Source: Bacteroidota bacterium | GTDB taxonomy: Bacteria > Bacteroidota > Bacteroidia > Cytophagales > Cyclobacteriaceae | Assembly (NCBI GenBank): GCA_016178785.1 | Contig: JACOSO010000020.1 | Coordinates: 1 to 64,000, forward strand | Length of the DNA: 64,000 nucleotides | Direction: 5' to 3' | Shown here: piece by piece, positions 32,953-63,272 of the stretch | Numbering within the stretch: position 1 is the stretch's first letter | How the letters are laid out: each line of letters opens with the position of its first letter | Position numbers and translations under genes: made by a program | Notes under the pieces: generated by a model | What the model was told of the DNA's origin: nothing | What the model saw: the letters and a program-made list of their open reading frames with translations, nothing else | Database searches by the model: none

Positions 32953-32996
32953 TGAAGATTATCATACGTTGTGTGCAAGCTCAACGATTACCTTTC
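32953..32996 (+). promoter_or_regulatory. Candidate Crp/Fnr-like promoter of the DUF892/DUF4136/CHAD operon
   Basis: The palindrome TGAAgattATCA (32953-32964) is one base off TGAY-N4-RTCA. The -7 element TAccTTTC (32989-32996) follows after 24 bp, one more than in the best examples. It is the weaker kind of match in this set. Confidence 0.4.
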
Positions 32997-33033
32997 TCAT
33001 GCGAAACGGTAATTGAAGTCTCACAAAAAGGCA

Positions 33034-33447
33034 ATGATTATGAAAACTGAAACTGATCTCAAACAACAACTGCTACAGGAAGTTGGGCTTTTGTACATCA
33101 ATGAAAAAGAATTTTTGTTCCGTCTGCAGAAAATGGCAAGCTTTTCATTGGGAAAGGTTGTCGACAGTTATTTGTACCAGATCATTGAGAACCACAAACT
33201 GCAATGCTATCGACTGGAGGGAATACTTACAGCCCTGAACGAAGAGCTACCATCCCATTCAAGAAAAATGAACTCTTCCCGAACAAAGCTTGGTACGCAA
33301 CTGGCGGATTATCAACCAGTCATTGCGTTAGCTGAATTGACAGGGAGTGCGGAAATAGTGAGATTGCTCAAGCACGCCTCTATTAAAAAGAGAGATTTCA
33401 GAACCATCCCATTAGAGTTAATTGGACATGCATTGGCGGCCGCGTAA
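33034..33447 (+). CDS. DUF892-like (YciE/YciF) ferritin-fold protein, divergent
   Basis: This ~137-aa all-helical protein begins with LYINEKEFLFRLQKMA, the DUF892 opening where helix 1 carries YxxEK/LxxxLxKM. Helices such as VDSYLYQIIENHKLQCYRLEGILTALNEEL follow. Metal ligands are less obvious than in ferroxidase-like members. A frame from 33013 uses TTG; ATGs are at 33034 and 33040. It is probably a stress protein and the first gene of a three-gene unit. Confidence 0.6.
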   Translation: MIMKTETDLKQQLLQEVGLLYINEKEFLFRLQKMASFSLGKVVDSYLYQIIENHKLQCYRLEGILTALNEELPSHSRKMNSSRTKLGTQLADYQPVIALAELTGSAEIVRLLKHASIKKRDFRTIPLELIGHALAAA

Positions 33448-33483
33448 CAATTTTTTAAAATAATTTAACCAAATGTTGATACG

Positions 33484-34041
33484 ATGAAAAAGTTAATTCC
33501 ATTAGTAGGGCTATTAATTTCTTGCAGCTCTGACATGTATATCTTTACCGACTACGATAAAAGCTTTGATGTAACTAAGTACGAAAGTTACAGCTGGAGT
33601 GAAATTAAAAACATTGAGAACAATAGAAATCCGATCTATTACAATGAATTGAACGATAAACGAATCAAGGTAGCGGTAAATGAAGCCCTGGCCGGCAAGG
33701 GATATAAGGAAGAATCTAGAGAGCCGTGCTTTGTTTTGCATTATCACATCGTGATTGGTGACGTAACTGCTTATCACGCTGACCCTATGCTCAGCCATGA
33801 GGCGCCTTGGATGAGGCCGATGGTTCCCTACTATCGCTACAAGGAAGGCTCGTTGATATTTGATGTGATGGACATGAAATCAAATAGCCTCATTTGGCGC
33901 GGATACGCTTCGCAAATTCTAGTGGCCGAAAATACTCCGCTAACGGACGAAAATATAAAAGGAGCAGTCAAAAAAATATTCAGAAAATTTCCGGCACGGA
34001 ATACTGCGAATGTTTTAAAATCAAAAGAGGGTACGCAATGA
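33484..34041 (+). CDS. DUF4136 domain lipoprotein
   Basis: This 185-aa lipoprotein (LLISCSS) has the DUF4136 pattern: DYDKSFDVTKYESYSW near the N-terminus, RIKVAVNEALAGKGY in the middle, and LIFDVMDMKSNSLIWRGYA with a C-terminal KKIFRKFP. The function is unknown. It overlaps the CHAD gene by 4 bp (ATGA). Confidence 0.85.
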   Translation: MKKLIPLVGLLISCSSDMYIFTDYDKSFDVTKYESYSWSEIKNIENNRNPIYYNELNDKRIKVAVNEALAGKGYKEESREPCFVLHYHIVIGDVTAYHADPMLSHEAPWMRPMVPYYRYKEGSLIFDVMDMKSNSLIWRGYASQILVAENTPLTDENIKGAVKKIFRKFPARNTANVLKSKEGTQ

Positions 34042-34808
34042 TACTTAAGAAACCAGAAATAATTCGGATGGGACGGTTCAAGAAATTTGCTAATCACCAA
34101 TTCAAGTCGCTGGTCGAGCATTTGGAAGACTATCGGAACAAAAAAGACCAGGAGCTCCTGCACAAAATTCGCGTTGACATAAAAAAAATCAAGGCAATCC
34201 TTCTACTGACCAATGATCGAGTGAAAGGATTTAATGGGCACAAAAATTTTATTCCGTTTCGGACCATATTCAGAAGAGCTGGCGGAATTCGAGAGCCTGA
34301 AGTTCTCAGCAGTTTGCTTTTGGCTTATAACATTCCGGGAGTCCATGACCAGTCCATTGATGGGAATGGCGAAAAATTAGCGATAAGTTTCTCAAACGAT
34401 GTGCATTCATTTATTGATATTGTGAATAAGCAGTGGCAAAAATTAGAATCGGCCTTTGGGAAGGTGAGGAAAAAAGACCTTGTCCAATATCTCAAAAAGA
34501 CAAATAAAAATATCAAAGCGAAACTTCATCCTGAGCCTGCCATAGATCTGATTCATAAAGTGCGAAAATCGATGAAGGAATTCAAGTATTTATCCCAGTC
34601 AATTCAAGGATCAAGAAAAAAAAGGCGCAAATTTTACTCGGCCGAGATTGAATTGATAGGTGACCTTCACGACCGACAGGTGTTGCTCAACTTGCTAAAT
34701 AAAGGCAATGGCGCGGCAGACAAAGTAACGATCGAAAAAATTCAGAAGGAGTGTGATGCTAAGAAAGATAAGATCAAAAAAAGGGCACTGCGGTTTTATC
34801 GAAGTTAG
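34038..34808 (+). CDS. CHAD domain protein
   Basis: The true start is the ATG at 34038, overlapping the DUF4136 stop; a longer frame from 33894 runs inside the previous gene. The ~256-aa protein is helical and rich in conserved His, Arg and Lys, with the repeat HKIRVDIKKIKAILLL and HKVRKSMKEFKYL that marks CHAD (conserved histidine alpha-helical) domains. CHAD proteins bind polyphosphate. A polyphosphate-granule role is consistent with a stress island. Confidence 0.8.
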   Translation: MILKKPEIIRMGRFKKFANHQFKSLVEHLEDYRNKKDQELLHKIRVDIKKIKAILLLTNDRVKGFNGHKNFIPFRTIFRRAGGIREPEVLSSLLLAYNIPGVHDQSIDGNGEKLAISFSNDVHSFIDIVNKQWQKLESAFGKVRKKDLVQYLKKTNKNIKAKLHPEPAIDLIHKVRKSMKEFKYLSQSIQGSRKKRRKFYSAEIELIGDLHDRQVLLNLLNKGNGAADKVTIEKIQKECDAKKDKIKKRALRFYRS

Positions 34809-34850
34809 GCTGGCCTAAAACTTAAGTGGAGTACGACATGCCTTATCTTA

Positions 34851-37403
34851 TCAACCCTTCCTTAACTTCGCATGACGGAAAAAGAATCGTTTGAGCATTT
34901 CGGCTGAGACAATGTAACACAGCACTAACCCCAACAAAACGGCTATGTAACCAAAAGGTAGTTTTTCGAAACCGAGCACACCTGCAAGCGGAGAAATCGG
35001 AATCAGGAGAGTCATCATACCTGTGAGAAGCACAGCCGCAAGAAGATACCTACTAGGCCTGCTTTTGAATATGCTATTAGGAGAACGTACGATCAGTACA
35101 ATTAAAGACGCTGATACTACCGATTCAACGAACCAACCTGTTCGAAATTGAATTTTGTCAGCCTTCAATAAAAAGAGCAATACTCCAAAAGTTGCAAAAT
35201 CAAACACAGAGCTAAGCAGGCCAAATCTGATCATAAACTTCCTTATAAATTTTAAATCCCATTTGCGAGGTTTGGTAATCGTTTCTTTCTCCACGTTGTC
35301 GCTGGCAATTGTCATTTCAGGAAGATCAGTAAGAAGGTTTGTAAGCAAAATTTGCGAAGGCAGCAGTGGCAAATACGGTAGAAATAGAGAAGCACCAGCC
35401 ATGCTGAACATATTGCCGAAATTGGCGCTCGATGCCATTAATATATACTTTAGCGTATTCGCAAAAGTCCTCCTTCCTTCTTTTACTCCTTCCATCAATA
35501 CATTCAGATCTTTGTCGAGCAGAACGATGTCGGCCGATTCTTTGGCAATGTCAACAGCAGTATTTACCGAAATCCCAACATCTGCAACATGCAACGCAGA
35601 GGCATCGTTGATTCCATCACCCATGTAGCCCACTACATTGCCACTTTTCTTAAGAGCCAACAAAATCTTTTCTTTTTGGTTGGGTTCAATTTCCGCAAAG
35701 ATGTTGACAGCGTTGACCCGATGTACCAATGCCTCATCGCTGATCGCGTGCATTTCCTTGCCTGTTAGAATTTTTGGTGTTCGTGAAAATACTTTCTCTC
35801 CTAAATCAGCAGCGATGTAGCGATTATCGCCAGTAATCATTTTTAGGGTAATTCCCATTTTCTTTAGGCTGCTTATGGTATCGATAATGCCTTCTTTGGG
35901 AGGATCGTAAAACGTAATGAATCCGAGAAAGATCAATCCGCACTCCTCATCTTTTTCAATTCGAGTTATTTCACTGATATTTTTATAAGCGATCGCAATG
36001 ACTCGCAGACCTTGTTTGCTCAAATGTTCAAATCTTTTGACAAGATCGCTCCTGCATTCTTGGATGTCCTTGAAAGAAGTTTCGCCAACTTCTATTTTAG
36101 TACAGCATTCAATAATATTTTGAAATGCTCCTTTGGTGATAACGATGTGGCCGCTAGGGGAATTGATGACAATACTCAATCGCTTGCGGATAAAGTCATA
36201 GGGAATCTCATCCGCTTTTGTGTATGGACTTATATCAAGCTTTGCAGAATCGATAATAGCTCCATCGATCGGGTTCTTAAAGCCTGTTTCATAGTACGAA
36301 TTCAAATAACTATATAATTGTGTTTTGTTACTTCTTATCCCCTGCCAATCCATAAACTCTCTGACTTGTACACTGCCCTCAGTGAGCGTTCCTGTCTTAT
36401 CGGCACAGAGCACATTCATGCTACCAAAGTTTTCTATACAAGACAATTTCTTTACGATGACTTTTTTCTTGGCAATATTCTTTGCCCCATGTGATAAGTT
36501 GATACTGATGATGGCAGGCAACAGCTGCGGTGTAAGCCCCACCGCCAGCGCTAGCGAGAACAGCAATGAATCAATGACAGGCCGATGAAAATAGATGTTG
36601 ATTGCAAAGATGGTGATAACAAGGATCGAGGTTACTTCCATCAGTAGGTATCCAAACTTCCTGACACCAACCTCGAAATCTGTTTCGACAACTGTACTTG
36701 ATAAATGTTTGGTGATTTCTCCAAACTCCGTTTTTATTCCTGTGTATACCACCAATGCCGTAGCCAGCCCACTCACTACGTGTGTGCCCATAAAAAGTGA
36801 GTTAAACCGCTTCGCCAGAGGAGCATCAGCCGAGACAAGTTGATCGCTTTTTTCTACGGGAAAAGTTTCGCCAGTCAAAGATGCTTCATCAATGAATAGA
36901 TCTTTTGAGTTGATAATTCGGCAGTCTCCAGGGATGATGTCTCCAGCTCTCAAAGAGATTACGTCTCCTGTGACGATTTCTTCAATGGGAATTTCAATTA
37001 GAGCACCATTGCGAGTAACTGAAGTTTTAATTTTGATCACCGAAAGCAGATCGCGCACCGCGCCCCTGGCACCCAGTTCCTGCCAAAAACTAAGCCCTGC
37101 GCTTGCCATGATTATGAAAAATATAATGAATGTGTTAGTCGCCTCTCCTAAGAACATCGATAAGCAAGCTGCAAATAATAAGATGATAGTGATGGGGCTT
37201 TTAAATTGATTTAAAAGCAAACTCAGGGAAGATTGTTCTTTGATCGAACTTAGCCTGTTAGGTCCATCCTCCCGCCCTCGTCTCCTTGCTTCTTGACCTG
37301 ACAGCCCATTAAAATTTGCATCGAGTTTTCTTGTGAGCTCGTCTATCGGTGTGGACCAGAATTGAATTAACCCGGCATCTTCTATTTCCTTCGATTTACT
37401 CAT
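34851..37403 (-). CDS. mgtA: Mg2+-importing P3B-type ATPase
   Basis: This 850-aa protein matches MgtA/MgtB: N-terminal FNGLSGQEARRRGREDGPN, QFKSPITIILLFAACLS, FIDEASLTGETFPVEK, phosphorylation site CADKTGTLTEG (~334), LKMITGDN and YMGDGINDASAL. The C-terminal helices include LLTDLPEMTIASD. It imports Mg2+ driven by ATP. It ends convergently with the CHAD gene. No MgtA-type leader was seen; instead a Crp/Fnr-like box precedes it. Confidence 0.9.
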   Translation of the reverse strand: MSKSKEIEDAGLIQFWSTPIDELTRKLDANFNGLSGQEARRRGREDGPNRLSSIKEQSSLSLLLNQFKSPITIILLFAACLSMFLGEATNTFIIFFIIMASAGLSFWQELGARGAVRDLLSVIKIKTSVTRNGALIEIPIEEIVTGDVISLRAGDIIPGDCRIINSKDLFIDEASLTGETFPVEKSDQLVSADAPLAKRFNSLFMGTHVVSGLATALVVYTGIKTEFGEITKHLSSTVVETDFEVGVRKFGYLLMEVTSILVITIFAINIYFHRPVIDSLLFSLALAVGLTPQLLPAIISINLSHGAKNIAKKKVIVKKLSCIENFGSMNVLCADKTGTLTEGSVQVREFMDWQGIRSNKTQLYSYLNSYYETGFKNPIDGAIIDSAKLDISPYTKADEIPYDFIRKRLSIVINSPSGHIVITKGAFQNIIECCTKIEVGETSFKDIQECRSDLVKRFEHLSKQGLRVIAIAYKNISEITRIEKDEECGLIFLGFITFYDPPKEGIIDTISSLKKMGITLKMITGDNRYIAADLGEKVFSRTPKILTGKEMHAISDEALVHRVNAVNIFAEIEPNQKEKILLALKKSGNVVGYMGDGINDASALHVADVGISVNTAVDIAKESADIVLLDKDLNVLMEGVKEGRRTFANTLKYILMASSANFGNMFSMAGASLFLPYLPLLPSQILLTNLLTDLPEMTIASDNVEKETITKPRKWDLKFIRKFMIRFGLLSSVFDFATFGVLLFLLKADKIQFRTGWFVESVVSASLIVLIVRSPNSIFKSRPSRYLLAAVLLTGMMTLLIPISPLAGVLGFEKLPFGYIAVLLGLVLCYIVSAEMLKRFFFRHAKLRKG

Positions 37404-37422: not shown

Positions 37423-37465
37423 CGAACTTATAAATCCGGTTGTCAAACAATCATGACGATTGTCA
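37423..37465 (-). promoter_or_regulatory. Candidate Crp/Fnr-like promoter of mgtA
   Basis: The perfect palindrome TGACgattGTCA lies at 37454-37465. On the minus strand TAagTTcG (37423-37430) follows after exactly 23 bp, and the mgtA ATG is at 37403. The box and its flanks extend the dyad (ATCATGACgattGTCAATCG). Confidence 0.65.
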
Positions 37466-37565: not shown

Positions 37566-37703
37566 ATGAAAACCAAGGCGCTAAGCGGACATCACGAATT
37601 TTCCATTCGTAGCCCACAATTGACATCCATGATGGCTACAGTTATGTCCATTATCAAGTTTATAATCGTGGTAGTCGGCATCGCTTTAATGTTTTTCAAA
37701 TAG
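37566..37703 (+). CDS. Small single-helix membrane protein, 45 aa
   Basis: The ATG at 37566 gives MKTKALSGHHEFSIRSPQ, a short soluble start, followed by one membrane helix (VMSIIKFIIVVVGIALMFF) and a final Lys. It is similar in plan and N-terminus to the next small gene (MKTNAIRKRHELFISGSQ). This suggests a tandem duplication of a real microprotein. No function is known. A near-consensus box TGATatccGTCA (37538-37549) lies very close upstream. Confidence 0.55.
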   Translation: MKTKALSGHHEFSIRSPQLTSMMATVMSIIKFIIVVVGIALMFFK

Positions 37704-37752: not shown

Positions 37753-37795
37753 CGACCTAAGTCAGCATTCGTGCCCTTGAGGTAAGCTAATTTCG
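37753..37795 (+). promoter_or_regulatory. Candidate Crp/Fnr-like promoter of the microprotein/usp operon
   Basis: CGACctaaGTCA (37753-37764) differs from TGAC-N4-GTCA by its first base. TAatTTcG (37788-37795) follows after exactly 23 bp, 19 bp before the ATG at 37815. The -7 element has the same TTcG variation as the mgtA promoter. Confidence 0.55.
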
Positions 37796-37814: not shown

Positions 37815-37961
37815 ATGAAGACAAATGCGATTAGAAAACGTCATGAATTGTTCATTAGCGGTTCTCAGGTAAAATACATCGTGCTTACTGTCCTGGCAGT
37901 TGTTGTAATAGTAACCGTTGTTGCCATTGTCGCTTTATTATTCAAAGGTATTGTCTCCTAA
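37815..37961 (+). CDS. Small single-helix membrane protein, 48 aa
   Basis: The ATG at 37815 gives MKTNAIRKRHELFISGSQ followed by a strongly hydrophobic helix (IVLTVLAVVVIVTVVAIVALLF). It resembles the 45-aa protein 112 bp upstream. It lies 16 bp before the usp gene and just downstream of a well-placed promoter module, so it is probably translated and co-expressed with usp. The function is unknown. Confidence 0.6.
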   Translation: MKTNAIRKRHELFISGSQVKYIVLTVLAVVVIVTVVAIVALLFKGIVS

Positions 37962-42413: not shown

Positions 42414-42456
42414 TGACTAATCTCATTCTTTGAACTCCAATTTGGAAGTACGTTTG
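42414..42456 (+). promoter_or_regulatory. Candidate Crp/Fnr-like promoter of hsp20
   Basis: TGACtaatCTCA (42414-42425) has one mismatch to TGAY-N4-RTCA. A perfect -7 element TAcgTTTG (42449-42456) follows after exactly 23 bp. A strong ribosome-binding site (AAGGAGG, 42468-42474) lies before the ATG, which is unusual for this phylum. Confidence 0.6.
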
Positions 42457-42478: not shown

Positions 42479-42937
42479 ATGAATACACTTATGAAAACAA
42501 ACGGGAATCTGTTCCCAACCTTGCTATCCGATTTTTTCGGTGCAAGTCCTGTGCTAAGTCCAAATTTATTTGATGTGGACTTAGATCTACTGCCCTCACG
42601 GCTAGGCATCAATGTTCCGACAGCCAACATTTCTGAAACAGAAAAAGAGTATCAGATTCAGTTGGCTGCACCAGGTCTGGCTAAAAAGGATTTTAAGATC
42701 GAAACAGACAATGGTGTCCTCACGATCAGCGCTGAGAAGGAAGAAAAAGCTGAAAGCAAAAACGGGTATGCCCGTACGGAGTACTCGTTCAATTCATTCA
42801 GTCGCTCTTTCACATTGCCAGAGAACTCAAAACCAGACAACATCAACGCAAAGTATGAAGATGGCATTCTCAAGCTGACAGTTCCCAAAAAGGAAATCAC
42901 GTCTGTTAAGCCGAAAAAGGAAATAGCAGTTTCCTAA
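42479..42937 (+). CDS. Small heat shock protein, Hsp20/alpha-crystallin family
   Basis: This 152-aa protein has an N-terminal arm (GNLFPTLLSDFFG), an alpha-crystallin domain from about 42 to 138 (VPTANISETEKEYQIQLAAPGLAKKDFKIE ... YEDGILKLTVPKKE), and a C-terminal IAV motif used for oligomer contacts. It is an ATP-independent holdase. An SD-type ribosome-binding site and a terminator immediately downstream indicate high, single-gene expression. Confidence 0.95.
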   Translation: MNTLMKTNGNLFPTLLSDFFGASPVLSPNLFDVDLDLLPSRLGINVPTANISETEKEYQIQLAAPGLAKKDFKIETDNGVLTISAEKEEKAESKNGYARTEYSFNSFSRSFTLPENSKPDNINAKYEDGILKLTVPKKEITSVKPKKEIAVS

Positions 42938-44573: not shown

Positions 44574-44928
44574 CGCAGGTAAGCCGAAATCCGTTATCTC
44601 AACGAATTCTTGTCACTTAACCTTTCTTCATCATTTACCCCGCAGGCTGCCACATGGCCATTCGAGCAATTGCTCTACTTACCTGATTCAAGGCTGTCGA
44701 TGATCTTGATGTAAGAAAAAAAGATTTGAAAAAATATCCGATGACGGTTGTCATGGTTTGATGAATTTAAAATCACTTTCGTTTGTTGATTACTTTGTGG
44801 ATTTGGGGACAACGTTAATCTCCTTTATCTCAACTGGAAAACCTTGCAATGATGGGTGATATATATCATAGTCTTTTAGCTCAGCGCCAAATAACTTTGA
44901 TTACAATTCTAAAGTTAGGTGAAGCACC
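44574..44928 (+). promoter_or_regulatory. Upstream region of nrdJ with two Crp/Fnr-like boxes
   Basis: The proximal box TGATatatATCA (44857-44868) is a perfect palindrome, and the perfect -7 TAacTTTG (44892-44899) follows after exactly 23 bp. A distal box TGACggttGTCA (44742-44753) is followed by TTcgTTTG (44778-44785) after 24 bp. No gene is visible in this stretch. Confidence 0.7.
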
Positions 44929-46698
44929 ATGGACGATCAATATGCATCGGTTATAAACCCTGTTCAACTTTCTCACAATGCTTATCGAATACTTGAAAAC
45001 CGATATCTGAGAAGAAATGAAGCGGGAGAATTGGAGTTAGCTGAAGAGTTATTTCAACGCGTGGCGCGCAAAGTCGCGCAGGCTGAACTCGTTTGGGGTA
45101 CGTGGAGCGACTCGCTATTTTGGGAGGAAAGATTTTTCGAAATCTTATGCGATTTGAAATTCCTTCCTAATTCACCCACGCTCATGAATGCGGGCACTCC
45201 ATCTAATCAGCTGAGTGCATGTTTCGTTTTGCCAATTGAAGATTCACTGGAAGCTATTTTTTCCACGCTGAAGCTTGCAGCCCTGATTCAGCAAAGCGGT
45301 GGAGGCACGGGCTTTAACTTTTCTCATTTAAGACCAAAGAATTCCCTTTTGGAAAACACGCAAGGTTCTGCGTCCGGGCCTGTTTCTTTCATGAAGATTT
45401 TTGATGCTGCAACAGAACATGTCAAACAAGGTGGCAAAAGACGCGGAGCAAATATGGGGATACTTAACATAAGTCATCCCGACATTGAAGAATTTGTTGC
45501 AAGTAAAACAGGCGATCAAGATCTTCACAATTTTAACATCTCCGTAGGAGTATCTGATGCATTTATGAACACTGTGAAACGCGATGAAGAATGGGAACTT
45601 GTTCATCCGAATACAGGATTTGTTGCAAGAAAAATCAAAGCCAGAAAATTATGGACCAGCATTATCGAAAACGCATGGCAAAACGGAGATCCGGGTTTTA
45701 TTTTTTTAGACACCATTAATGAAACAAACCCCACGCCTATCTTGGGAAAAATCGAATCAACCAATCCCTGCGGAGAAGTTCCTTTATTGCCTTACGAATC
45801 ATGCAACCTTGGCTCACTCAACCTCTCAAAATTTATTCTCACTGATGGAAAGTCATTTGATTGGGTGGCACTTGAGCAGGCTATAAACATTGCCGTTCGC
45901 TTTCTCGACAATATTATTGAAGTCAACCACTATCTCTCATCAGAGATAAAAGACATAACGGTAGGAAATCGCAAAATTGGTCTCGGTGTCATGGGTTGGG
46001 CCGAGGCGCTAAGCATCCTGGAAATACCGTACGATTCTGTGGAAGCTGTAAGAGTTGCTGAGTCATTGATGAAGTTTATCTCAGATAAGAGCAAAGAAGC
46101 ATCCGAAAAATTGGCCAAAGAGCGTGGTGTATTTAAAAACTGGAACAACAGTATCTACTACCCTCACACCCGCATCAGAAATGCAACACGGACAAGCATC
46201 GCACCTACAGGAAGTATTTCTATCATTGCAGATACTTCTTCTTCGATTGAACCTTTTTTCGCGTTGGCATATCAACGCTATCACGTGCTAAAAGATGAAA
46301 CGCTCCAGGAGGTGAATAAAAGTTTACTCAACTACCTTGACGCTCATCAAATTCCATCAGACGAAGTCATGAAGATGATTGTAGATTCCGGAACTTTGAA
46401 AGATGTCACCTCTTTATCTGATGACGAAAAACGTTGTTTTAAAACAGCCCTGGAAATAAAACCCGAATGGCACCTAAGGCACCAGGCTGCTTTTCAGAAA
46501 TTCACTGACAATGCAGTATCGAAAACCATCAATTTACCACAAGGAGCAACACCAGCTGATATATCATCCATTTACGCGCAGGCATGGCGCCTTAAATTAA
46601 AAGGGATCACGGTGTTCCGGTATAACTCAAAACCCAAACAAGTGATGTATCAGGGAATCACCAGCGATATAAAGAATTGCAAAGTTTGCATAGCGTAG
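44929..46698 (+). CDS. nrdJ: Adenosylcobalamin-dependent (class II) ribonucleotide reductase, compact form
   Basis: This 589-aa protein contains LPNSPTLMNAGTP, the first redox Cys (LSACFVLP), QSGGGTGFNFSHLRP, the radical-site segment STNPCGEVPLLPYESCNLGSLNL (~278), GVMGWAEALSIL, and TSIAPTGSISIIADTSS. It ends in NCKVCIA, a C-terminal Cys pair for re-reduction. There is no ATP-cone. It makes dNTPs without oxygen using B12, which suits hypoxic repair or dormancy. No NrdA/B genes are nearby. Confidence 0.93.
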   Translation: MDDQYASVINPVQLSHNAYRILENRYLRRNEAGELELAEELFQRVARKVAQAELVWGTWSDSLFWEERFFEILCDLKFLPNSPTLMNAGTPSNQLSACFVLPIEDSLEAIFSTLKLAALIQQSGGGTGFNFSHLRPKNSLLENTQGSASGPVSFMKIFDAATEHVKQGGKRRGANMGILNISHPDIEEFVASKTGDQDLHNFNISVGVSDAFMNTVKRDEEWELVHPNTGFVARKIKARKLWTSIIENAWQNGDPGFIFLDTINETNPTPILGKIESTNPCGEVPLLPYESCNLGSLNLSKFILTDGKSFDWVALEQAINIAVRFLDNIIEVNHYLSSEIKDITVGNRKIGLGVMGWAEALSILEIPYDSVEAVRVAESLMKFISDKSKEASEKLAKERGVFKNWNNSIYYPHTRIRNATRTSIAPTGSISIIADTSSSIEPFFALAYQRYHVLKDETLQEVNKSLLNYLDAHQIPSDEVMKMIVDSGTLKDVTSLSDDEKRCFKTALEIKPEWHLRHQAAFQKFTDNAVSKTINLPQGATPADISSIYAQAWRLKLKGITVFRYNSKPKQVMYQGITSDIKNCKVCIA

Positions 46699-49793: not shown

Positions 49794-49837
49794 CAAACTT
49801 TTAATCAATTAGCTGCCCCAAGCCTTGAAAGCTATCA
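49794..49837 (-). promoter_or_regulatory. Candidate Crp/Fnr-like promoter of the usp/kinase operon
   Basis: TGAAagctATCA (49826-49837) within a TTGA...TCAA dyad is followed on the minus strand by AAagTTTG (49794-49801) after 24 bp, 28 bp before the ATG at 49766. Both parts carry one mismatch, so this is a weaker member of the set. Confidence 0.4.
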
Positions 49838-49979: not shown

Positions 49980-50022
49980 TGACATAAATCATTCACATCT
50001 GTTTCGCTCTGACATAACTTTC
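49980..50022 (+). promoter_or_regulatory. Candidate Crp/Fnr-like promoter of the phosphoribosyltransferase gene
   Basis: TGACataaATCA (49980-49991) is followed by TAacTTTC (50015-50022) after exactly 23 bp, 23 bp before the ATG at 50046. The rest of 49.77-50.05 kb contains no supported gene. Confidence 0.6.
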
Positions 50023-50860: not shown

Positions 50861-51275
50861 ATGAACGATCTGAAACCCGTGGTAGCCGGCAACGAAGCGG
50901 GATTTCGTGTCTTGTTCGAATGTGCTACTATTGGCATACTCGTGATCAATGAAAATGGCGGGATTGAGCTCTTAAACTCTTGTGCTGAAAATCTTTTTGG
51001 ATACTCTTCGGAAGAATTACTAGGTAAGCCGGTTGAAATACTAATCCCCGATAACCTGCGTCAAAAACATACCCAGCACCGCGAGGGTTACTTTGCACAT
51101 CCAAAGGCCAGACCCATGGGGCTTGGCATAGAGCTTTATGCATGCAAAAAAAATGGCGTCATATTTCCAGTTGAAATAAGTTTGGGGCATTATGTTTTTA
51201 GATGACGACAACATGGCCGTAGCTTTTGTCACTGACATTACTGAACGAAAATCGGAACAACATTATCAAGGATGA
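50861..51275 (+). pseudogene. PAS domain fragment of a broken histidine kinase
   Basis: The first frame encodes a PAS domain (LFECATIGILVINENGGIELLNSCAENLFGYSSEELLGKPVEILIP) and stops at 51205. The expected PAS end (MAVAFVTDITERKSEQHYQ) continues in another frame (51201-51275), as if one base were lost in the T-run at 51195-51199. The kinase follows in a third frame. This could be decay or an assembly error at a homopolymer. Confidence 0.65.
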
Positions 51276-52335
51276 CGAAGGCAATGTAATTGATTTGCGC
51301 TATCTCGAAGTAAATTCACGTGCCGAAGAAATGCTCGGCAAAAAAAGCCATGAGCTTGTTGGGCGCCTCAGAGGCGAAGTGGAGGGACCATTTGATGAAC
51401 AAACGCGAGACGTTATAGATAGGGTGCTAAACAAGAATAAACAGGTAACCACCGAACGCTACATACCCACGATAGACCGATGGTTTCAGATCAGCAGCTA
51501 CTCTCCTCTGCCCAATCAAATTGCAACCTTGTCACTTGACATCACCGAGCGCAAAAGAGCACAAGATGAGCTGCAAAAATTAAATGAAGAGTTGGAGACC
51601 CGCGTAGAAGATAAAACAAGGGAGCTTCAGGAATCTGTTCAGCGTGAAAAGGAACTGAATGAATTGAAGTCGAGGTTTGTTTCGATGGCTTCACATGAAT
51701 TTCGCACGCCCTTGAGTGTGGTACTCTCCAGCGCTTCCCTGATTGGACAATACGTTGGTGATAACAACGAGCGCGTCAGCAAACATCTGTCAAAAGTCAA
51801 ATCTGCTGTTGGTAACCTCACCAATATATTAAACGACTTTCTATCACTTGATAAACTGGAGCAGGGCAAAGTTGAGATTGAATGGGAAGCATTTGATATG
51901 GCTGAATTTATTAACGACATGCTGGAGGAAACTCTTTCAATAAGAAAGAAGGGGCAGCAAATCAACGCAAGTCACTCGGGGAATAAATGGATCAAATCGG
52001 ACCACAAGACGCTTCGCTACATTGCTGTCAATCTGATTTCAAATGCGATAAAATACTCTGAAGAACATGCTGTCATCAATTTAGCATCAATAGTTGAAGA
52101 CAATCAATTGACAATCTCTGTGCAAGATCAAGGGATTGGTATTCCTGCGGAAGAACAAAAATATTTATTCGAGAAATTCTTTAGGGCAAAAAACACCGGT
52201 GCAATTCAGGGCACGGGATTGGGGTTAACCATTGTGAAACGTTATGTTGAACTCCTGGGTGGGACAATCGCTTTTGTTAGTGAAGTAAACAAAGGCACCA
52301 CATTCACCATTTTACTACCTCAATCTTCTTTATGA
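51226..52335 (+). CDS. PAS-containing sensor histidine kinase (N-terminally broken)
   Basis: The frame starts at a TTG, not a convincing start. It enters mid-way into a second PAS domain (GNVIDLRYLEVNSRAEEMLGKK ... LSLDITERKRAQ). A coiled coil, the HisKA box (RFVSMASHEFRTPLSVVLSS) and HATPase boxes (NLISNAIKY, QDQGIGIPAEEQKYLFEKFFR, GTGLGLTIVKRYVELLGG) follow. The kinase core is intact; the first ~15-20 residues of PAS 2 seem missing. It overlaps the response regulator by 4 bp. Confidence 0.8.
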   Translation: MSLTLLNENRNNIIKDDEGNVIDLRYLEVNSRAEEMLGKKSHELVGRLRGEVEGPFDEQTRDVIDRVLNKNKQVTTERYIPTIDRWFQISSYSPLPNQIATLSLDITERKRAQDELQKLNEELETRVEDKTRELQESVQREKELNELKSRFVSMASHEFRTPLSVVLSSASLIGQYVGDNNERVSKHLSKVKSAVGNLTNILNDFLSLDKLEQGKVEIEWEAFDMAEFINDMLEETLSIRKKGQQINASHSGNKWIKSDHKTLRYIAVNLISNAIKYSEEHAVINLASIVEDNQLTISVQDQGIGIPAEEQKYLFEKFFRAKNTGAIQGTGLGLTIVKRYVELLGGTIAFVSEVNKGTTFTILLPQSSL

Positions 52336-52697
52336 AAACGATTTTAGTTATCGAAGACAATTCCGACATCCTGGAAAACACGACTGAAATTCTTGAGCTC
52401 GCCAACTTTAAAGTGCTCAACGCAAAAAACGGCAAAGAGGGCATTGATGAAGCTATGAAAAGTAAACCTGATGTTATTTTGTGTGATATTATGATGCCCG
52501 AGGCTAGCGGTTATGAGGTGCTTCTTGGTCTTAAGAAAAATCCGATCACTAAAAATATACCTTTCATATTTGTAACGGCCACTGTAGAAAAAAAGGATGT
52601 GAATAATGCGATGGACATGGGAGCTGACGGTTATTTAAAAAAGCCTTTCGAAATAGAAGATCTTCTCAAAATAGTTAGGTCCTTCATCAAAGACTGA
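52332..52697 (+). CDS. Single-domain response regulator
   Basis: This 121-aa receiver domain has the acidic pair ED near the start, the phospho-acceptor Asp in VILCDIMMPEASGYE, the Thr/Ser switch (IFVTA) and the Lys in GYLKKPFE. There is no output domain. It is translationally coupled to the histidine kinase and could act by protein contact or in a phosphorelay. Confidence 0.92.
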   Translation: MKTILVIEDNSDILENTTEILELANFKVLNAKNGKEGIDEAMKSKPDVILCDIMMPEASGYEVLLGLKKNPITKNIPFIFVTATVEKKDVNNAMDMGADGYLKKPFEIEDLLKIVRSFIKD

Positions 52698-54362: not shown

Positions 54363-54405
54363 TAAAAATAGCGAAGGATGAGGTTTTCATTCCTGACTCA
54401 AATCA
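54363..54405 (-). promoter_or_regulatory. Candidate Crp/Fnr-like promoter of the 57-aa membrane protein
   Basis: TGACtcaaATCA (54394-54405) is followed on the minus strand by TAttTTTA (54363-54370) after exactly 23 bp. Confidence 0.5.
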
Positions 54406-54416
54406 TTAGTTCTTAT

Positions 54417-54459
54417 TGATTTGTGTCATCAATAGTTATTGGGCTGGCCTCTATTTTAG
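54417..54459 (+). promoter_or_regulatory. Candidate Crp/Fnr-like promoter of the coiled-coil gene
   Basis: TGATttgtGTCA (54417-54428) is followed by TAttTTAG (54452-54459) after exactly 23 bp, 19 bp before the ATG at 54479. It is back-to-back with the box for the divergent membrane protein. Confidence 0.55.
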
Positions 54460-56436: not shown

Positions 56437-56479
56437 TGACCTTTGTCATGATTAATTCATCGTTGTAAATCAACCTTTA
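56437..56479 (+). promoter_or_regulatory. Candidate Crp/Fnr-like promoter of ftsH
   Basis: TGACctttGTCA (56437-56448) is a perfect box. A degraded -7 element AAccTTTA (56472-56479) follows after exactly 23 bp. Confidence 0.45.
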
Positions 56480-56510: not shown

Positions 56511-58448
56511 ATGGATCAGCAAAATACCGGGAAAGAAAAGGGCAGATTGTTCAAGATCGGAACAGGATGGCTTTACTTAATCCTGATTCTGGCGCTATTG
56601 CTTCCCTCCATTCTTGATTATTCGTCTACTAACCAGATTACTTGGAAAGATTTCGAACAAAAAATGCTTTCGCGCCATGCAGTAGATAAGGTAGTGGTGG
56701 TCAATAATGAAATTGCTAAAGTTTATATCAAACCTGAATTCGCCAACGACCCCGCCTTTAAAGATGTCATGAAAAATCCTATGGGGAAAGGCATTAATCC
56801 GGGGCCGCATTTTCAATTTACCATTGGCTCGATTGAGTCTTTTGAAAGAAAGTTAGATGAAGCACAAGAACATTTCTCTGAAAACGACAAAATAAACATA
56901 AGTTATGCTAAGAGCAGTAACTGGACTACCACACTGCTGCCATGGCTCATCCCGATTTTTTTGATGGTAATATTCTTTCGTTTTTTTCTGAATGGTAGCA
57001 CAGGCGGATCATCTGTCTTAAATTTTGGAAGATCTACTGCCCAGCTTTTGGATAAGAGTGATAAGAGTTCAGTCACGTTTGAAGACGTAGCCGGCCTGGA
57101 GGAAGCAAAACAGGAAGTAAAGGAGATCGTTGATTTTTTAAAAAATCCCGTACGGTACACCAAGCTAGGAGCTAAAATTCCTAAAGGGGTTATCATCGTT
57201 GGCCCCACGGGAACGGGCAAAACCTTGCTAGCGAAAGCAGTAGCAGGTGAAGCCCAGGTGCCATTCTTCTCTTTGTCAGGCTCTGAGTTTGTTGAAATGT
57301 TTGTTGGCGTTGGTGCATCGCGGGTGCGTGATCTTTTTAAGCGTGCAAAAGAAAAAGCACCTTCCATCATTTTCATTGATGAGATTGATGCAGTAGGTCG
57401 GTCAAGAGGAAAAAATACATTTTATACTGGCGCAAACGATGAGCGCGAAAGTACGCTCAACCAGTTGCTCACAGAAATGGATGGCTTCGGTACTAACAGC
57501 GGAGTGATTGTGCTGGCTGCCACGAACCGTGGTGATATGCTAGACCATGCGCTGCTCAGGCCTGGAAGATTTGACAGACACATCTACCTCGACTTACCCA
57601 ACTACAATGAGCGTAAAGCTATTTTCCGGGTGCATCTTAAGGTATTGATACTGGCCGAATCCGTGAGCGCAGATTTCCTTGCGTCTCAAACACCAGGCTT
57701 CTCTGGCGCAGACATTGCCAATATCTGCAACGAGGCAGCATTGATCGCTGCGCGAAACAGGAAAGATAAGGTAGAACGCCAGGATTTCATGGACGCATTG
57801 GATCGAATTGTGGCAGGCCTAGAGAAGAAGAGCAAAATACTTTCCGCAAAAGAAAAGAAAACAATTGCTTATCACGAGGCCGGTCATGCGGTAGCAAGTT
57901 GGTTTTTGAAGAATGCTGATCCGCTCGTAAAAGTCTCTATCATTCCACGAGGCAAGTCACTTGGTTCGGCCTGGTACTTACCTGAAGAGCGGCAGCTTAA
58001 AACCCTTACCGAACTTGAAGAGCACATATTTGTAGCACTCGCAGGTCGCGCGGCTGAGGAGTTAACTTTTGGGGAAATCTCGTCAGGCGCACTTGATGAT
58101 CTGGAAAGAGTTACAAAGGATGCTTATGCGATGGCGATGTACTACGGGTTCAACAAAAAAATAGGAAACGTAAGCTTCTATGATTCCGGTGGTCGTGAAG
58201 CATTTCAAAAACCTTATAGCGAGGAAACAGCTAAGCTTATTGACGAAGAAGTTCGCAAGTTCGTGGAGACTTCTTATATCAACACAAAAAACCTTCTCGT
58301 GCATCATCAGCATGAGTTGACAAAAATAGCAGAGCTTCTCCTGCAACGGGAAGTGATCTTCAAAGAAGACTTGGAGAAAATACTTGGAGAGCGAATTGAA
58401 GAAATTTCAGAGACAAACACAATGGAAGTAGCGAATAATAACATGTAA
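56511..58448 (+). CDS. ftsH: ATP-dependent zinc metalloprotease FtsH
   Basis: This 645-aa protein has TM1 (~20-40), an exported domain, TM2 ([18 protein letters not shown]), and the AAA module with GPTGTGKT (~231-238; GPPGTGKT is usual), [11 protein letters not shown] and the second region of homology (RPGRFDRHI). The zinc site HEAGH is at ~455. The HEAGHAV Glu is catalytic. It degrades membrane and damaged proteins. The stress-type promoter suggests a dedicated extra copy; a housekeeping ftsH probably lies elsewhere. Confidence 0.95.
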
Positions 58449-59076: not shown

Positions 59077-59119
59077 TGACTAAAATCATATTTTAAAAAA
59101 GGTCGCAGTCATTACTTCC
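59077..59119 (+). promoter_or_regulatory. Candidate Crp/Fnr-like promoter of the BON gene
   Basis: TGACtaaaATCA (59077-59088) is a good box. The element at the 23-bp position, TTacTTcC (59112-59119), is poor. Confidence 0.4.
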
Positions 59120-59144: not shown

Positions 59145-59825
59145 ATGAAAACAGATGAAGAACTTCAGCACGATGTTATGGAGGAGATCAAATGGGATCC
59201 TCGCTTGAAGAGCATCGCAACACAGGTCGGAGTTACAGCAAAGGATGGTGTGATTACACTTTCGGGTGAGGTAGATACCTACCGGAAAAAAATTGCAGCC
59301 GAGCACGCTGCTCAACGCGTAGCCGGTGTAAAAGTAATAGCAGTGAACATTCAAGTGAACCTGGAAGGGAATGCAGCTAAGACCGACATTGATATAGCCA
59401 GGGCTGTTGGGGAGGCATTGAAGTGGAACAGTTCGATCAATGAAGACACGATCGAAGTCAAGGTTGAAAGTGGCTGGGTTTTTCTTGACGGCACAGTGGA
59501 GTGGGAATTTCAAAGGAAAATAGTAGAAGGAACGGTTCATGAATTGGCAGGAGTTCGCGGGGTGACCAACCGAATTGTTGTTACGTCAAAACTCTCGATT
59601 AGCCCTACCGAAATCAAAGAAAAAATAGCATCCGCTTTTCACAGAAGCGCTACCATTGATTCATCTGCTGTTAGAGTAGAAGTTTCCGGGGGCAAAGTAA
59701 AGCTGATTGGTAAAGTTCGGACCTGGCTGGAGAGGCAAGAAGCTGAAAATGCAGCGTGGTCTTCTGCAGGAGTAGTTGAGGTGGATAACAAAATTGAGGT
59801 GGACGCGGCACTGGAACTAGTATAA
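59145..59825 (+). CDS. Protein with three BON domains (OsmY-like)
   Basis: This 226-aa protein has three BON repeats at ~5-70, ~78-145 and ~152-222, each with the pattern VTAKDGVITLSGEVDTYRKKIAAEHAAQRVAGVKVI or GWVFLDGTVEWEFQRKIVEG. No signal peptide is evident. BON domains bind phospholipid surfaces and occur in osmotic-stress proteins. It is followed by the HPF gene at 34 bp. Confidence 0.9.
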   Translation: MKTDEELQHDVMEEIKWDPRLKSIATQVGVTAKDGVITLSGEVDTYRKKIAAEHAAQRVAGVKVIAVNIQVNLEGNAAKTDIDIARAVGEALKWNSSINEDTIEVKVESGWVFLDGTVEWEFQRKIVEGTVHELAGVRGVTNRIVVTSKLSISPTEIKEKIASAFHRSATIDSSAVRVEVSGGKVKLIGKVRTWLERQEAENAAWSSAGVVEVDNKIEVDAALELV

Positions 59826-59859: not shown

Positions 59860-60180
59860 ATGAATACTCAAGTACAATCACTCGGTTTTGACGCCAACCC
59901 ACCTTTGTTGGAGCTCGTTAATAAGCGACTGGAAAAAATAGCTCAGCACAGCGATCGGATATTGGAAGCAAGGGTAATACTCAAGCTAGACAAATCCGAC
60001 ACGAGGGAAAACAAGAGATGCGAGATCCGCCTCGTAATCCCGGGAAATGATCTTTTCGCAAAGAAAGTAGGTGGAACTTTTGAAGAGGCACTCGATCACG
60101 TAATCCATGCACTCGAAAAACAGGTTTCAGATTGGAAAACTACATTACACGATCGGCAGGTGAAGGTTGCAAAGAATTAG
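59860..60180 (+). CDS. hpf: HPF/RaiA-type ribosome hibernation factor
   Basis: This 106-aa protein shows the short HPF/YfiA fold: VQSLGFDANPPLLELVNKRLEKIAQHSDRILEARVILKLDKS, then KRCEIRLVIPGNDLFAKKVGGTFEEALDHVIHALEKQV. It binds the 30S decoding site and silences or protects ribosomes in stationary or hypoxic cells. The long C-terminal dimerisation domain is absent. Confidence 0.9.
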   Translation: MNTQVQSLGFDANPPLLELVNKRLEKIAQHSDRILEARVILKLDKSDTRENKRCEIRLVIPGNDLFAKKVGGTFEEALDHVIHALEKQVSDWKTTLHDRQVKVAKN

Positions 60181-60415: not shown

Positions 60416-61639
60416 TTAGTTCCATGACACTTGCGGTAAGTCGACTTCGACCTTCCTACCATTTCGTGAAGTCATCTCAAGATCTGCTGCTATATTCATA
60501 AAATTAATATAGGCATCGTAGGGAGAATCGTAAGGGCTGAAGTATTTGTGCACATCTCCGTCATTCCAATACTTGGTAGACATATAATATAGATGGTCTG
60601 AAGTCAACAACTTAGCCCAGCTGCTAATGAGTTCGGGGTTCTTAGTATCTTTTAACTGACGCTCTAGCTGGTATATCCTTTCTGCTGCATCTTGCTGCAA
60701 ATCGTTTCCCAACCACGCACTCAAGTCACGTTCCGTATCAGCCCACGAGGTAAAGTAAGGAACATCATACTCACCTCTTGAAGAATAAGATTCAATTATA
60801 TCTGAGGGAGTTTTGAAATCAAAATCAGGATGCTTCAGGATTTCGCGAGGCATATTTTTGAGGAAATCGAAGATGCCCGTCTCTTTCCATTGATGTTCAC
60901 CAAAAGTTTCATAATCCATGAAAAGGTTGATGATCTCTCCGCCTCCTGCGATTTGATGAACCCAATGAGCAAACCGATCGGCCGTCAAGGGAAATTGATT
61001 CCAGTTTTTATCAGAAAACCGAAAAGCAATATCGTCTGACAGTTTATAATTTTTCAAAAGGCATTTGAATCCCGGAATCGCAGGCGGATTATAAACAAAA
61101 TTCGGACTTCGATTTCCGAGCAGCCTGTCCACGCCTTCACAAATAACTCCTTTAAACCCGAGCGTGTTGATCAACGTAGCCAGCCGGTTGTTATAAATCA
61201 GCTCTGTGTTGCGAAAAATTTTAGGAGTTTGCCCCGTCAATCGATTGACTAATTTGCGATGCATGTCGACTTGACGGATAAACTCTTCAGCTGAGTACTT
61301 AAAACTCAACGAATGATAATAGGTTTCACAGAGTAATTCGACACAACCTGTTTTGAATAACTGAACAAACGAATCACAAACTTTGGGTTCGTACTTTTCA
61401 AACTGCTCCCAAGCGGTGCCGGTAATCGAAAACGCTATTTTGAATTTGCCTACATTTTGGTTGATCAGATCCAATAATAATTTATTCGTTGGCAGATAAC
61501 ATTTTTTTGAAACACGCTTCAGTATTTCACGATTCTTGGTTTCATCCTCATAATAATGGTCTTCCCCAATTTGAAAACAGGAATAAGGTTTCAAACGATA
61601 AGGTTGATGAACCTGAAAATATAAACACACTGATGGCAT
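60416..61639 (-). CDS. Glycoside hydrolase family 57 protein
   Basis: This 407-aa protein starts MPSVCLYFQVHQPYRLKPYS, the HQPYR signature of GH57. The nucleophile region is LLCETYYHSLSF, and the acid region FMDYETFGEHQW is present. GH57 enzymes are alpha-amylases, 4-alpha-glucanotransferases or branching enzymes. It lies 2 bp after a glycosyltransferase gene, so storage alpha-glucan metabolism is likely. Confidence 0.9.
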   Translation of the reverse strand: MPSVCLYFQVHQPYRLKPYSCFQIGEDHYYEDETKNREILKRVSKKCYLPTNKLLLDLINQNVGKFKIAFSITGTAWEQFEKYEPKVCDSFVQLFKTGCVELLCETYYHSLSFKYSAEEFIRQVDMHRKLVNRLTGQTPKIFRNTELIYNNRLATLINTLGFKGVICEGVDRLLGNRSPNFVYNPPAIPGFKCLLKNYKLSDDIAFRFSDKNWNQFPLTADRFAHWVHQIAGGGEIINLFMDYETFGEHQWKETGIFDFLKNMPREILKHPDFDFKTPSDIIESYSSRGEYDVPYFTSWADTERDLSAWLGNDLQQDAAERIYQLERQLKDTKNPELISSWAKLLTSDHLYYMSTKYWNDGDVHKYFSPYDSPYDAYINFMNIAADLEMTSRNGRKVEVDLPQVSWN

Positions 61640-61641
61640 AT

Positions 61642-62937
61642 TCAGGGAGTTAAAACATTGTATACGTTCATTATCTTATCAGTCGTCTTGCCCCACGTGA
61701 GATGTTCAACATCTTTATGAGACCGCGACTCCATTGCATTTTTCAACCTGGGATACTTGAGAATAGCATAAAGGTAATTCGCAAACCCATCTGTATCCCA
61801 GAAGTCGGCACGTAAGGAATTAGCCAATACTTCAGCCACACCGGAGCGTTTAGAAATTACGCTTGCTGTTCCATGTTGAGCGGCTTCGACTGCAGACAAT
61901 CCAAAGGGCTCAGACACGGAAGGCATGAAATAGGCATCGGAACTTGCAAGCAGATCCTTGATTTTTTCGCGAGAAAGGAATCCTGCAAAACTGAAATACT
62001 TACCCAATCGTTGTCGTGCCACTTCATGGATCAACATGGGCAATAGATCACCATTGCCTGCAATGATGAATCTTACGTTGGGGTAAACACGAATTAATTT
62101 TTCGGCTGTCTCTACCAAAAACTGCGGACCTTTTTGAAAGGTAAGGCGCCCGATAAAAGTAATCCATTTCTCACCTGCTTTCTTCCTGAACTTAGAACGC
62201 GCTGTTACCTCCGCGCCATTGTGAACGACTTCAATCTTTCTTTCATCAATGCCATAATGAATTGCTATTTGTTGTTTTGTGTAATCACTTACGGCAATTA
62301 TTTTATCGGCCTCCTGCATCGCCATTTGCTCAATAGCATAAATTTCGTTTCGGGTTTTTTCGCCTGCACGATCCGTCTCAAGAGAATGAACATGCAGCAC
62401 CAATGGCTTGTGTGTATCGTGCTTAAGTTGAATAGCCGCCTCGAATGTAGGCCAATCATGTGCATGAATGATGTCGAACTCTTTTTGTGATGCCAGCTCC
62501 TTTGCAGCTATCGCATACAAATGCGTGCGTTCTAAAATATCGCGACCGTATAAATCATGCGTCTGAAAATATTCAGACACATCTGACCACGTTGAAATCG
62601 TTTTAAAGAATTGCTCACCACTTTCTGTTCTTTTTGAAAATCCCTTTCTTGACTTTAAGGCTGGATAGGCTGAGAGCTCGACAAGAACGCGGGACAGAAG
62701 AACAGTGGGAAATTCCCTTACAAAGTTTTCGTTTTTAAATTCCTCTTCAACCCGGTTCAAAGCCGTCACCTCAACATTTTCAAGATTTTGTGCATCTGCG
62801 AATGGAACGATCAGGTGAACATTTGCCCTTTCGCTTAACGATTTTACAATATTAAAGCACGCAACTCCCAAACCGCCAGTAAATGCAGGTGGAAATTCCC
62901 ATCCTAACATCAGTACGTGTTTTCTTTCGTGTTTCAA
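61642..62937 (-). CDS. Glycosyltransferase family 4 (glycogen-synthase-like)
   Basis: This 431-aa GT-B protein starts from TTG: MKHERKHVLMLGWEFPPAFTGGLGV, the Rossmann entry with the KxGGL-like loop. HAHDWPTFEAAI, FIGRLTFQKGPQFLVE and the EX7E site MPSVSEPFGLSAVEAAQHG follow. It probably extends alpha-glucans from a nucleotide sugar. It pairs with GH57 as an operon for glycogen-like polymer metabolism. Confidence 0.88.
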   Translation of the reverse strand: MKHERKHVLMLGWEFPPAFTGGLGVACFNIVKSLSERANVHLIVPFADAQNLENVEVTALNRVEEEFKNENFVREFPTVLLSRVLVELSAYPALKSRKGFSKRTESGEQFFKTISTWSDVSEYFQTHDLYGRDILERTHLYAIAAKELASQKEFDIIHAHDWPTFEAAIQLKHDTHKPLVLHVHSLETDRAGEKTRNEIYAIEQMAMQEADKIIAVSDYTKQQIAIHYGIDERKIEVVHNGAEVTARSKFRKKAGEKWITFIGRLTFQKGPQFLVETAEKLIRVYPNVRFIIAGNGDLLPMLIHEVARQRLGKYFSFAGFLSREKIKDLLASSDAYFMPSVSEPFGLSAVEAAQHGTASVISKRSGVAEVLANSLRADFWDTDGFANYLYAILKYPRLKNAMESRSHKDVEHLTWGKTTDKIMNVYNVLTP

Positions 62938-62964
62938 TTTTGGCAGGCGATTGATTTGTAGTTT

Positions 62965-63007
62965 TAAAAGTACTTTGTAACCTCTTCACACCTAATGACC
63001 AAAGTCA
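62965..63007 (-). promoter_or_regulatory. Candidate Crp/Fnr-like promoter of the glycosyltransferase/GH57 operon
   Basis: The perfect palindrome TGACcaaaGTCA (62996-63007) is followed on the minus strand by TActTTTA (62965-62972) after exactly 23 bp, 27 bp before the TTG start. Confidence 0.6.
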
Positions 63008-63206
63008 GTTTTGTTCACTGTTTTTGTCACCACGAAAGCATCTGTAAAGAATATAATATCGAAAGAGAATATAGAATAATCGATTGTTACTGGGATTAAA
63101 TCCTAGTGCTATTCGCGTGAAGTTTCTGTGGAAATGTTGGCCTAATTTAGACGACAGAGAATGAACCTGAGTCACAGAGCTTCAATGAATGTTTATCTTC
63201 AAGTTC

Positions 63207-63272
63207 TGATTGAAGTCACGTGTTTAATGTGATTCAAGTCATAAGATATCTTATCCATTGAAATTAGCTTTG
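63207..63272 (+). promoter_or_regulatory. Candidate Crp/Fnr-like promoter of the pfkB-type gene, two boxes
   Basis: TGATtcaaGTCA (63230-63241) is followed by a perfect -7 TAgcTTTG (63265-63272) after exactly 23 bp. A second box, TGATtgaaGTCA (63207-63218), lies 23 bp (about two helical turns) upstream. The rest of the 361-bp divergent region holds no gene. Confidence 0.65.

Follow-up and report, generated by a model that had tools for sequence, protein, structure and literature searches.

The window, meaning the whole stretch of DNA analysed here, comprised bases 1-64000 of contig C88 (JACOSO010000020.1) in a 4.47-Mb, 100-contig assembly of a Bacteroidota bacterium (GCA_016178785.1). The 41-kb island spans 32951 to about 74 kb on this contig, extending past the window end. 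Its cargo included Usp, Hsp20, a B12-dependent ribonucleotide reductase (NrdJ), an Mg P-type ATPase, FtsH, BON, an S30AE hibernation factor, a PfkB/Khk-type kinase, GH57 and a glycosyltransferase, and its part outside the window held additional usp genes, a pyruvate phosphate dikinase and, as named from its sequence, a P-type ATPase. A promoter module recurred upstream of the island genes. It was composed of a box, TGAY-N4-RTCA (12 bp), and a -7 element, TAnnTTTG, at a fixed gap, giving a pattern of 43 bp in total. The module described in the original prediction is real, and its sites in the window were as follows.

32953..32964, plus strand: box TGAAGATTATCA (1 mismatch), 24-bp gap to TACCTTTC (32989), operon at 33013.
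37454..37465, minus strand: box TGACAATCGTCA, 23-bp gap to TAAGTTCG (37423-37430), mgtA (34851-37403; TIGR01524 above cut-off).
37753..37764, plus strand: box CGACCTAAGTCA (1 mismatch), 23-bp gap to TAATTTCG (37788), operon of a 48-aa microprotein and usp.
42414..42425, plus strand: box TGACTAATCTCA (1 mismatch), 23-bp gap to TACGTTTG (42449), hsp20 (42479-42937).
44857..44868, plus strand: box TGATATATATCA, 23-bp gap to TAACTTTG (44892), B12-dependent ribonucleotide reductase nrdJ (44929-46698).
49826..49837, minus strand: box TGATAGCTTTCA (1 mismatch), 24-bp gap to AAAGTTTG (1 mismatch), usp2 (48918-49766).
49980..49991, plus strand: box TGACATAAATCA, 23-bp gap to TAACTTTC (50015), phosphoribosyltransferase (50046-50699).
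54394..54405, minus strand: box TGATTTGAGTCA, 23-bp gap to TATTTTTA (54363-54370), 57-aa membrane protein.
54417..54428, plus strand: box TGATTTGTGTCA, 23-bp gap to TATTTTAG (54452), coiled-coil gene and DUF2267.
56437..56448, plus strand: box TGACCTTTGTCA, 23-bp gap to a weak -7 element, AACCTTTA (56472), ftsH (56511-58448).
56437..56448, the same box in the other direction: 23-bp gap to AAAATTTA (2 mismatches), flavodoxin-like gene.
59077..59088, plus strand: box TGACTAAAATCA, 23-bp gap to a very weak -7 element, TTACTTCC, BON (59145-59825) and a hibernation-factor-like gene (59860-60180).
62996..63007, minus strand: box TGACTTTGGTCA, 23-bp gap to TACTTTTA (62965-62972), glycosyltransferase and GH57 (60416-62937).
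63207..63218, plus strand: second box TGATTGAAGTCA, in tandem with the box at 63230 and 23 bp before it.
63230..63241, plus strand: box TGATTCAAGTCA, 23-bp gap to TAGCTTTG (63265), PfkB/Khk-type sugar kinase.

All 11 gaps of 23 bp that had been claimed proved exact when re-measured. Nine of the 11 boxes were exact as well, with one mismatch each at the microprotein/usp operon and hsp20. The -7 elements matched TAnnTTTG exactly at hsp20, nrdJ and pfkB (3/11), and with one mismatch at mgtA, the microprotein/usp operon, the phosphoribosyltransferase, the 57-aa protein, the coiled-coil gene and the glycosyltransferase (6/11); those of ftsH and BON, already described as weak, had two and three mismatches, respectively. 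For the operons named DUF892 and second usp, both 24-bp gaps were present (32953, plus strand; 49837, minus strand) with one mismatch per element, while the gene called DUF892 was without a Pfam or NCBIfam match. The site called pfkB kept its 23-bp gap, while its gene matched Pfam Khk and extended beyond the window. A 73% paralogue of the glycosyltransferase/GH57 pair (contig C56) carried the same module with the -7 element TACTTTTG, and a 48% paralogue (contig C8) was without it.

Two divergent designs were seen among these sites: the single box at 56437-56448 had a weak candidate -7 element at 23 bp on both sides (ftsH and the flavodoxin-like gene), and at 54394-54428 two boxes 23 bp apart served opposite genes. 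In addition, tandem microproteins of 45 aa (37566-37703) and 48 aa (37815-37961) were located upstream of usp, with N-termini somewhat alike and a single hydrophobic stretch at the end of each; neither had a Pfam match.

The window held 23 boxes, against 6.4 (standard deviation 2.5, maximum 17) in 200 dinucleotide shuffles, and its part from 32951 to 64000 held 16 against 3.0 in shuffles (maximum 10). In that part TGAY ranked first among 128 palindromes of the same build, with AAAR and ATTY at 13 each and a mean of 2.3. Only 13.5% of it was intergenic according to the ORF-based (open reading frame) gene list made for this report, yet 13 of the 16 boxes were found there (binomial p 2e-9). The same-genome background, 20 stretches (400 kb) picked blind from other contigs, contained 44 boxes, and a -7 element with at most one mismatch stood at gap 23 in none of their 88 orientations, at gap 22 in four and at gap 24 in two. 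In the 41-kb island the 44 orientations of 22 boxes gave nine at gap 23, none at 22 and two at 24 (gap 23, Fisher p 3e-5), with a box density 4.9 times higher than in the background. In the whole genome, allowing one mismatch, the gap-23 pattern was matched 31 times against nine for the reversed pattern, a weak control compared with the control palindromes and the 400-kb background, and 10 of the 31 fell in the island (p 2e-13). The module might be seen as a side effect of AT-rich intergenic DNA and of picking the best sites by eye, since the sites had been chosen freely, -7 elements had been accepted with up to three mismatches, and some AT-rich palindromes were frequent in the island too (13, against 16 for the box). 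This is contradicted by the shuffles, the same-genome background, the reversed patterns, the control palindromes and the unseen genomes described below, and its chance is taken as negligible; in the same-genome background the spacing was not equally common, as it would be if the original prediction were wrong.

The 23-bp spacing is a rule across many Bacteroidota genomes and not a local habit. The material comprised 296 Bacteroidota genomes (73 of the same class and 223 others) and 80 loci around receiver-Crp (REC-Crp) genes of other genomes, with 594 box orientations in 1.45 Mb; these loci came partly from related genera and hence were not independent. In the 80 loci, the distance from an exact box to TAnnTTTG was 23 bp in 30 cases and 45 bp in 34, against 4-6 cases at gaps of 22, 24, 44 and 46, four at 0 and 49, and 0-2 elsewhere. 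Six control palindromes gave at most three cases at any gap from 15 to 31, TGAR, one step from the motif, having three at 23. The peak at 45 came from tandem boxes 22 bp apart: when the 34 gap-45 sites were aligned, a degenerate second box appeared at gap 23, with T-C-A in 34, 32 and 32 of the 34 sites and T-G-A in 32, 29 and 27, and no -33 TTG was seen in the spacer. The consensus from the alignment was TGAY-N4-RTCA without a conserved 5' T, and over the window sites and the aligned sites of the 80 loci the operator was a palindrome with a TGA-N6-TCA core.

Exact modules numbered 404 against 13 reversed in the 73 same-class genomes, and 113 against 12 in the other 223, where 28 of the 113 belonged to one genome (G271); one family (f17) had six modules in 65 genomes. 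At the 30 best hsp20 loci, the window included, the module was present at nine, with seven at gap 23, one at 22 and one at 24; of the remaining gaps, six were 45 and one was 46, and 17 and 19 each occurred once. Five of six control palindromes gave 0/30 at these loci and TGAR gave four. As a separate observation, G271 (e.g. L182) had the most exact modules of all 296 genomes, and one of them preceded a gene reading like the YtfE/RIC iron-sulfur repair protein.

A transcription map of Flavobacterium psychrophilum places TAnnTTTG at -12 to -5 (PMC9723704). By arithmetic on these start sites, a gap of 23 would put the box at -47 to -36 with its centre at -41.5, and a second box at -63.5. An operator centred near -41.5, as in class II Crp/Fnr promoters and as the original prediction had proposed, is suggested by this -7 position together with the gap of 23, which recurred without tuning in the 80 loci, the 296 genomes and the hsp20 promoters.

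No Crp-type gene was found on the whole of contig C88, in agreement with the statement that the window lacked such a regulator. In the genome, four genes exceeded the cut-off of Pfam Crp and nine matched HTH_Crp_2 at E 1e-3, none on C88. L002 (contig C89) had Crp/Fnr domains, with Fnr PRK11161 as its best NCBIfam match (84 bits vs a cut-off of 228). FNR itself holds its cluster with C20, C23, C29 and C122, carries the recognition helix E-x-x-S-R and binds TTGAT-N4-ATCAA. In an alignment of L002 with solved FNR, starting at residue 9, C10, C13 and C112 fell on C20, C23 and C122, and C29 was unmatched, so the class is called FNR-like and not FNR. Among 41 FNR-like sequences (the own one, 28 best homologues and 12 picked near known sites; one of 30 loci, L272, was left out for a cut flank), C10, C13 and C112 were present in 41/41, an extra cysteine, C59, in 40/41, and the helix residues E, I and R in 41/41.

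The second candidate, L003 (contig C67), consisted of a receiver, a cNMP-binding domain and HTH_Crp_2, and its nearest named relatives were in a Cytophagales metagenome-assembled genome (84%) and Bacteroidetes ones (80%, 71%). The receiver had the conserved phospho-Asp, acidic pair, T and K of response regulators: D16, D59, T89 and K111, and also helix E, I and R, were each conserved in at least 95% of 79 relatives, those of the 80 REC-Crp loci that were picked by the motif around D59. With the best six candidates per genome scored, full-length REC-Crp was found in at least 43 of the 296 genomes, all of the same class. In a second fusion, L004 (contig C28), N replaced I in the helix.

A box was located within 250 bp upstream of 14/29 FNR-like genes, none chosen for having one, where four control palindromes gave 0, 0, 2 and 1, and of 30/77 REC-Crp operons, where they gave 0, 1, 0 and 2; in the wider FNR-like set with the 12 picked loci it was 24/41. 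Both regulators are proposed as readers because they share the recognition helix and the operator context. The Crp/Fnr-family candidate named earlier gained support from the boxes at these genes, while the site was not strictly TTGAT-N4-ATCAA, since the consensus lacked the outer T. Separately, on an 8.3-kb contig (L119, C89, 4648-5701), the FNR-like gene had behind it a box, then a gene of 163 aa with no Pfam match and one that looked usp-like from its sequence.

These counts bear on other readings. The palindrome could be bound by a regulator of another family, e.g. NarL/LuxR-type, as used by the mycobacterial DosR system, whose regulator type and operator are unrelated to those described here. 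TGA-N6-TCA is the half-site spacing of Crp/Fnr proteins, and the boxes clustered at Crp/Fnr genes (clustering at other regulator families was not searched), so this reading is regarded as quite improbable, although the island content resembles the hypoxia-induced set of Mycobacterium tuberculosis (PMC8044303). Another reading would have only the FNR-like cysteine protein of L002 type reading the box, with REC-Crp acting on other targets. It would agree with the 150 modules in 30 same-class genomes without full-length REC-Crp among the scored candidates, with the 28 of G271 and with the boxes at 14/29 FNR-like genes. It is nevertheless thought unlikely, for 30/77 REC-Crp operons had the box too, the helix residues were identical, and the REC-Crp neighbourhoods were rich in boxes (297 in 1.45 Mb, where each of four control palindromes had 64-131).

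The kinases beside the fusion bear on the possible signal. Of 79 REC-Crp operons, 68 had a long ORF directly upstream: 62 of these encoded kinases whose N-terminus was a PAS with His (34) or a receiver (28), four were without H-box and two were other; 11 operons had no upstream kinase ORF. The PAS domain of one partner kinase (L114) matched solved FixL at E 1e-28; those of the own C67 kinase (7e-15) and of the window (2e-10) matched it too, though for both a multi-sensor kinase PAS (10jx) scored better. The PAS histidine fell in what we take to be the heme-ligand region of FixL and DosP, and the FixL/DosP-like PAS supports a putative role in heme and oxygen sensing. The corresponding genes of the window were as follows.

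50861..51205, plus strand: PAS domain, His aligned to the DosP/FixL heme-ligand region.
51226..52335, plus strand: histidine kinase (PAS_4, HisKA, HATPase_c), in a frame different from that of the PAS ORF.
52332..52697, plus strand: stand-alone receiver, 53% identical to the L003 (C67) receiver, without an output domain.

Together, the PAS and kinase ORFs (50861-52335) resembled a single sensor-kinase gene whose frame changes near 51190-51235, either broken or an assembly error. The window copy may thus be dead, its parts lying in different frames, and the island kinase was dropped as a working sensor. These genes bear on the reading that REC-Crp is the main reader, phosphorylated by PAS kinases including the island kinase and its receiver. 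Kinase and fusion genes were adjacent and near usp, hsp20 and cbb3 genes, the kinases had FixL-like PAS domains and the receivers a phospho-Asp; against this, REC-Crp presence did not correlate with module number, the island kinase was frame-broken and its receiver was without a DNA-binding domain. We consider this reading improbable, less so than a regulator of another family, and REC-Crp as sole reader was dropped for the missing correlation.

Among 56 modules of the 80 loci (-7 element with at most one mismatch), 15 were before Usp genes, 13 before PAS kinases, three before CopA/FixI-like genes, two each before REC-Crp, Hsp20 and HemN, and one before a CcoN-like gene; the names were read from sequence and the neighbourhoods had been chosen around REC-Crp. 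In the genome studied here, modules also preceded the Usp gene L115 (exact) and otsA (L118, one mismatch), and on contig C8 OtsA, OtsB and Usp lay behind a module. Contig C67 carried, within 35 kb, the cbb3 operon together with genes for nitrous-oxide reductase, Usp, Hsp20, the kinase and REC-Crp, with a gap-23 -7 element behind the boxes before a usp gene (exact) and a 171-aa gene (one mismatch). In this lineage, further genes seem to have joined a recurrent core of Usp, Hsp20, kinase and respiration genes.

We therefore favour, with a probability of about three in four, the reading that TGAY-N4-RTCA is a Crp/Fnr-type class II operator, read most likely by the FNR-like protein and the REC-Crp fusion, which would turn on a survival set under low oxygen or a related respiratory signal; such a promoter switch is probably this Bacteroidota group's counterpart of the low-oxygen (FNR) switch. 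A Crp/Fnr-type activator would bind at -41.5, 23 bp before TAnnTTTG, replace the -33 element and recruit the housekeeping polymerase, with a second dimer at -63.5 on some promoters. One reader would be L002, whose four near-invariant cysteines make it a candidate iron-sulfur sensor of oxygen or nitric oxide. The other would be L003, presumably switched by a PAS histidine kinase whose gene adjoins its own, with the cbb3 oxidase operon as their neighbour. The set turned on would comprise Usp, Hsp20, the B12-dependent ribonucleotide reductase, the Mg P-type ATPase, FtsH, BON, the hibernation factor and sugar storage. The original prediction is extended here by three points: the spacing holds as a rule in many Bacteroidota genomes, a tandem box would lie at -63.5, and two candidate regulators share one recognition helix. 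A wider proposal is held tentatively, at a little under an even chance: two sensors, an FNR-like protein with rearranged cysteines sensing directly and a fused receiver-Crp driven by FixL-like PAS kinases, may converge on one -41.5 operator in Bacteroidota, and in this lineage the operator may have spread over a dormancy-type island with cargo like the mycobacterial hypoxia set.

Several results weigh against the favoured reading. On the regulator side, L002 lacked a counterpart of FNR C29, the FNR-like helix was E-x-x-I-R with I in place of the S of FNR, and the island kinase looked broken. Same-class genomes with and without REC-Crp differed little in module number (mean 5.9 vs 5.0 in 73 genomes, Mann-Whitney p 0.80), and four genomes with REC-Crp (G072, G122, G253, G269) had no exact module. 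A further candidate reader of the box was L001 (contig C8), another Crp/Fnr gene, which encodes the helix E-T-T-A-R and is preceded by a box starting 34 bp from its start codon. On the target side, the -7 elements of ftsH and BON were poor, and the C67 boxes before ccoNO of the cbb3 operon and before the kinase had no -7 element at gap 23. When 30 exact modules of five further genomes were read, two were evidently before usp and one before hsp20; many were without an evident stress link, and at least one was apparently inside a coding sequence. The module was missing at 21/30 hsp20 loci, at all 24 glycosyltransferase homologues of other genomes (for L208 a wider stretch was searched) and at both nrdJ homologues, so membership of the island is partly lineage-specific, and a conserved island gene set as such was dropped.

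In Proteobacteria, class II promoters of FNR, Anr and FixK combine the Crp/Fnr fold, a TGA-N6-TCA core centred at -41.5 and targets such as cbb3, hemN and usp, and the present system would be like them in all of these. It is unlike them in having no outer T, E-x-x-I-R rather than E-x-x-S-R, TAnnTTTG as -7 element, a frequent second box at -63.5 and one FNR cysteine that is not conserved. As in FixL-FixJ-FixK, the signal of a PAS kinase would end in a Crp-type activator, whereas here receiver and activator are fused and the cascade would be one step shorter. BT4338 of Bacteroides thetaiotaomicron also belongs to the Crp family. According to PMC6989115, this activator is bound upstream of a Bacteroidota -7 element, but its proposed site is wwwTATGTTnTAnAACATAwww and it serves the response to carbon limitation. 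In Myxococcus xanthus, the heme-binding kinase pathway NmpRSTU controls cbb3 oxidase and HemN genes (PMC11841059), a kinase-pathway control like the one proposed here, though with an NtrC-like regulator. The hypoxia-induced set of M. tuberculosis (PMC8044303) includes the pfkB-acr cluster, called DosR-independent there, nrdZ, ctpF and otsB; hsp20, the PfkB/Khk kinase, NrdJ, the P-type ATPase, otsA/otsB and usp correspond to it here, a likeness of content and not of regulator. Within the titles, abstract openings and some passages of open-access literature, which left out subscription papers and preprints, neither the operator, nor the spacing, nor a receiver-Crp fusion was named; this does not establish their absence from print.

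With a fixed 43-bp pattern and little background, candidate regulon members could be listed for genomes within this class. The candidate regulators, being short and apparently soluble, could be tested directly. Elsewhere in the window, outside the island, an ArsR-like gene had two exact boxes at its start (26856 and 26878, 22 bp apart), and an RND-type efflux gene lay downstream of it, both genes being named from sequence; no -7 element stood at gap 23, and the spacing was that of the tandem boxes in other genomes.

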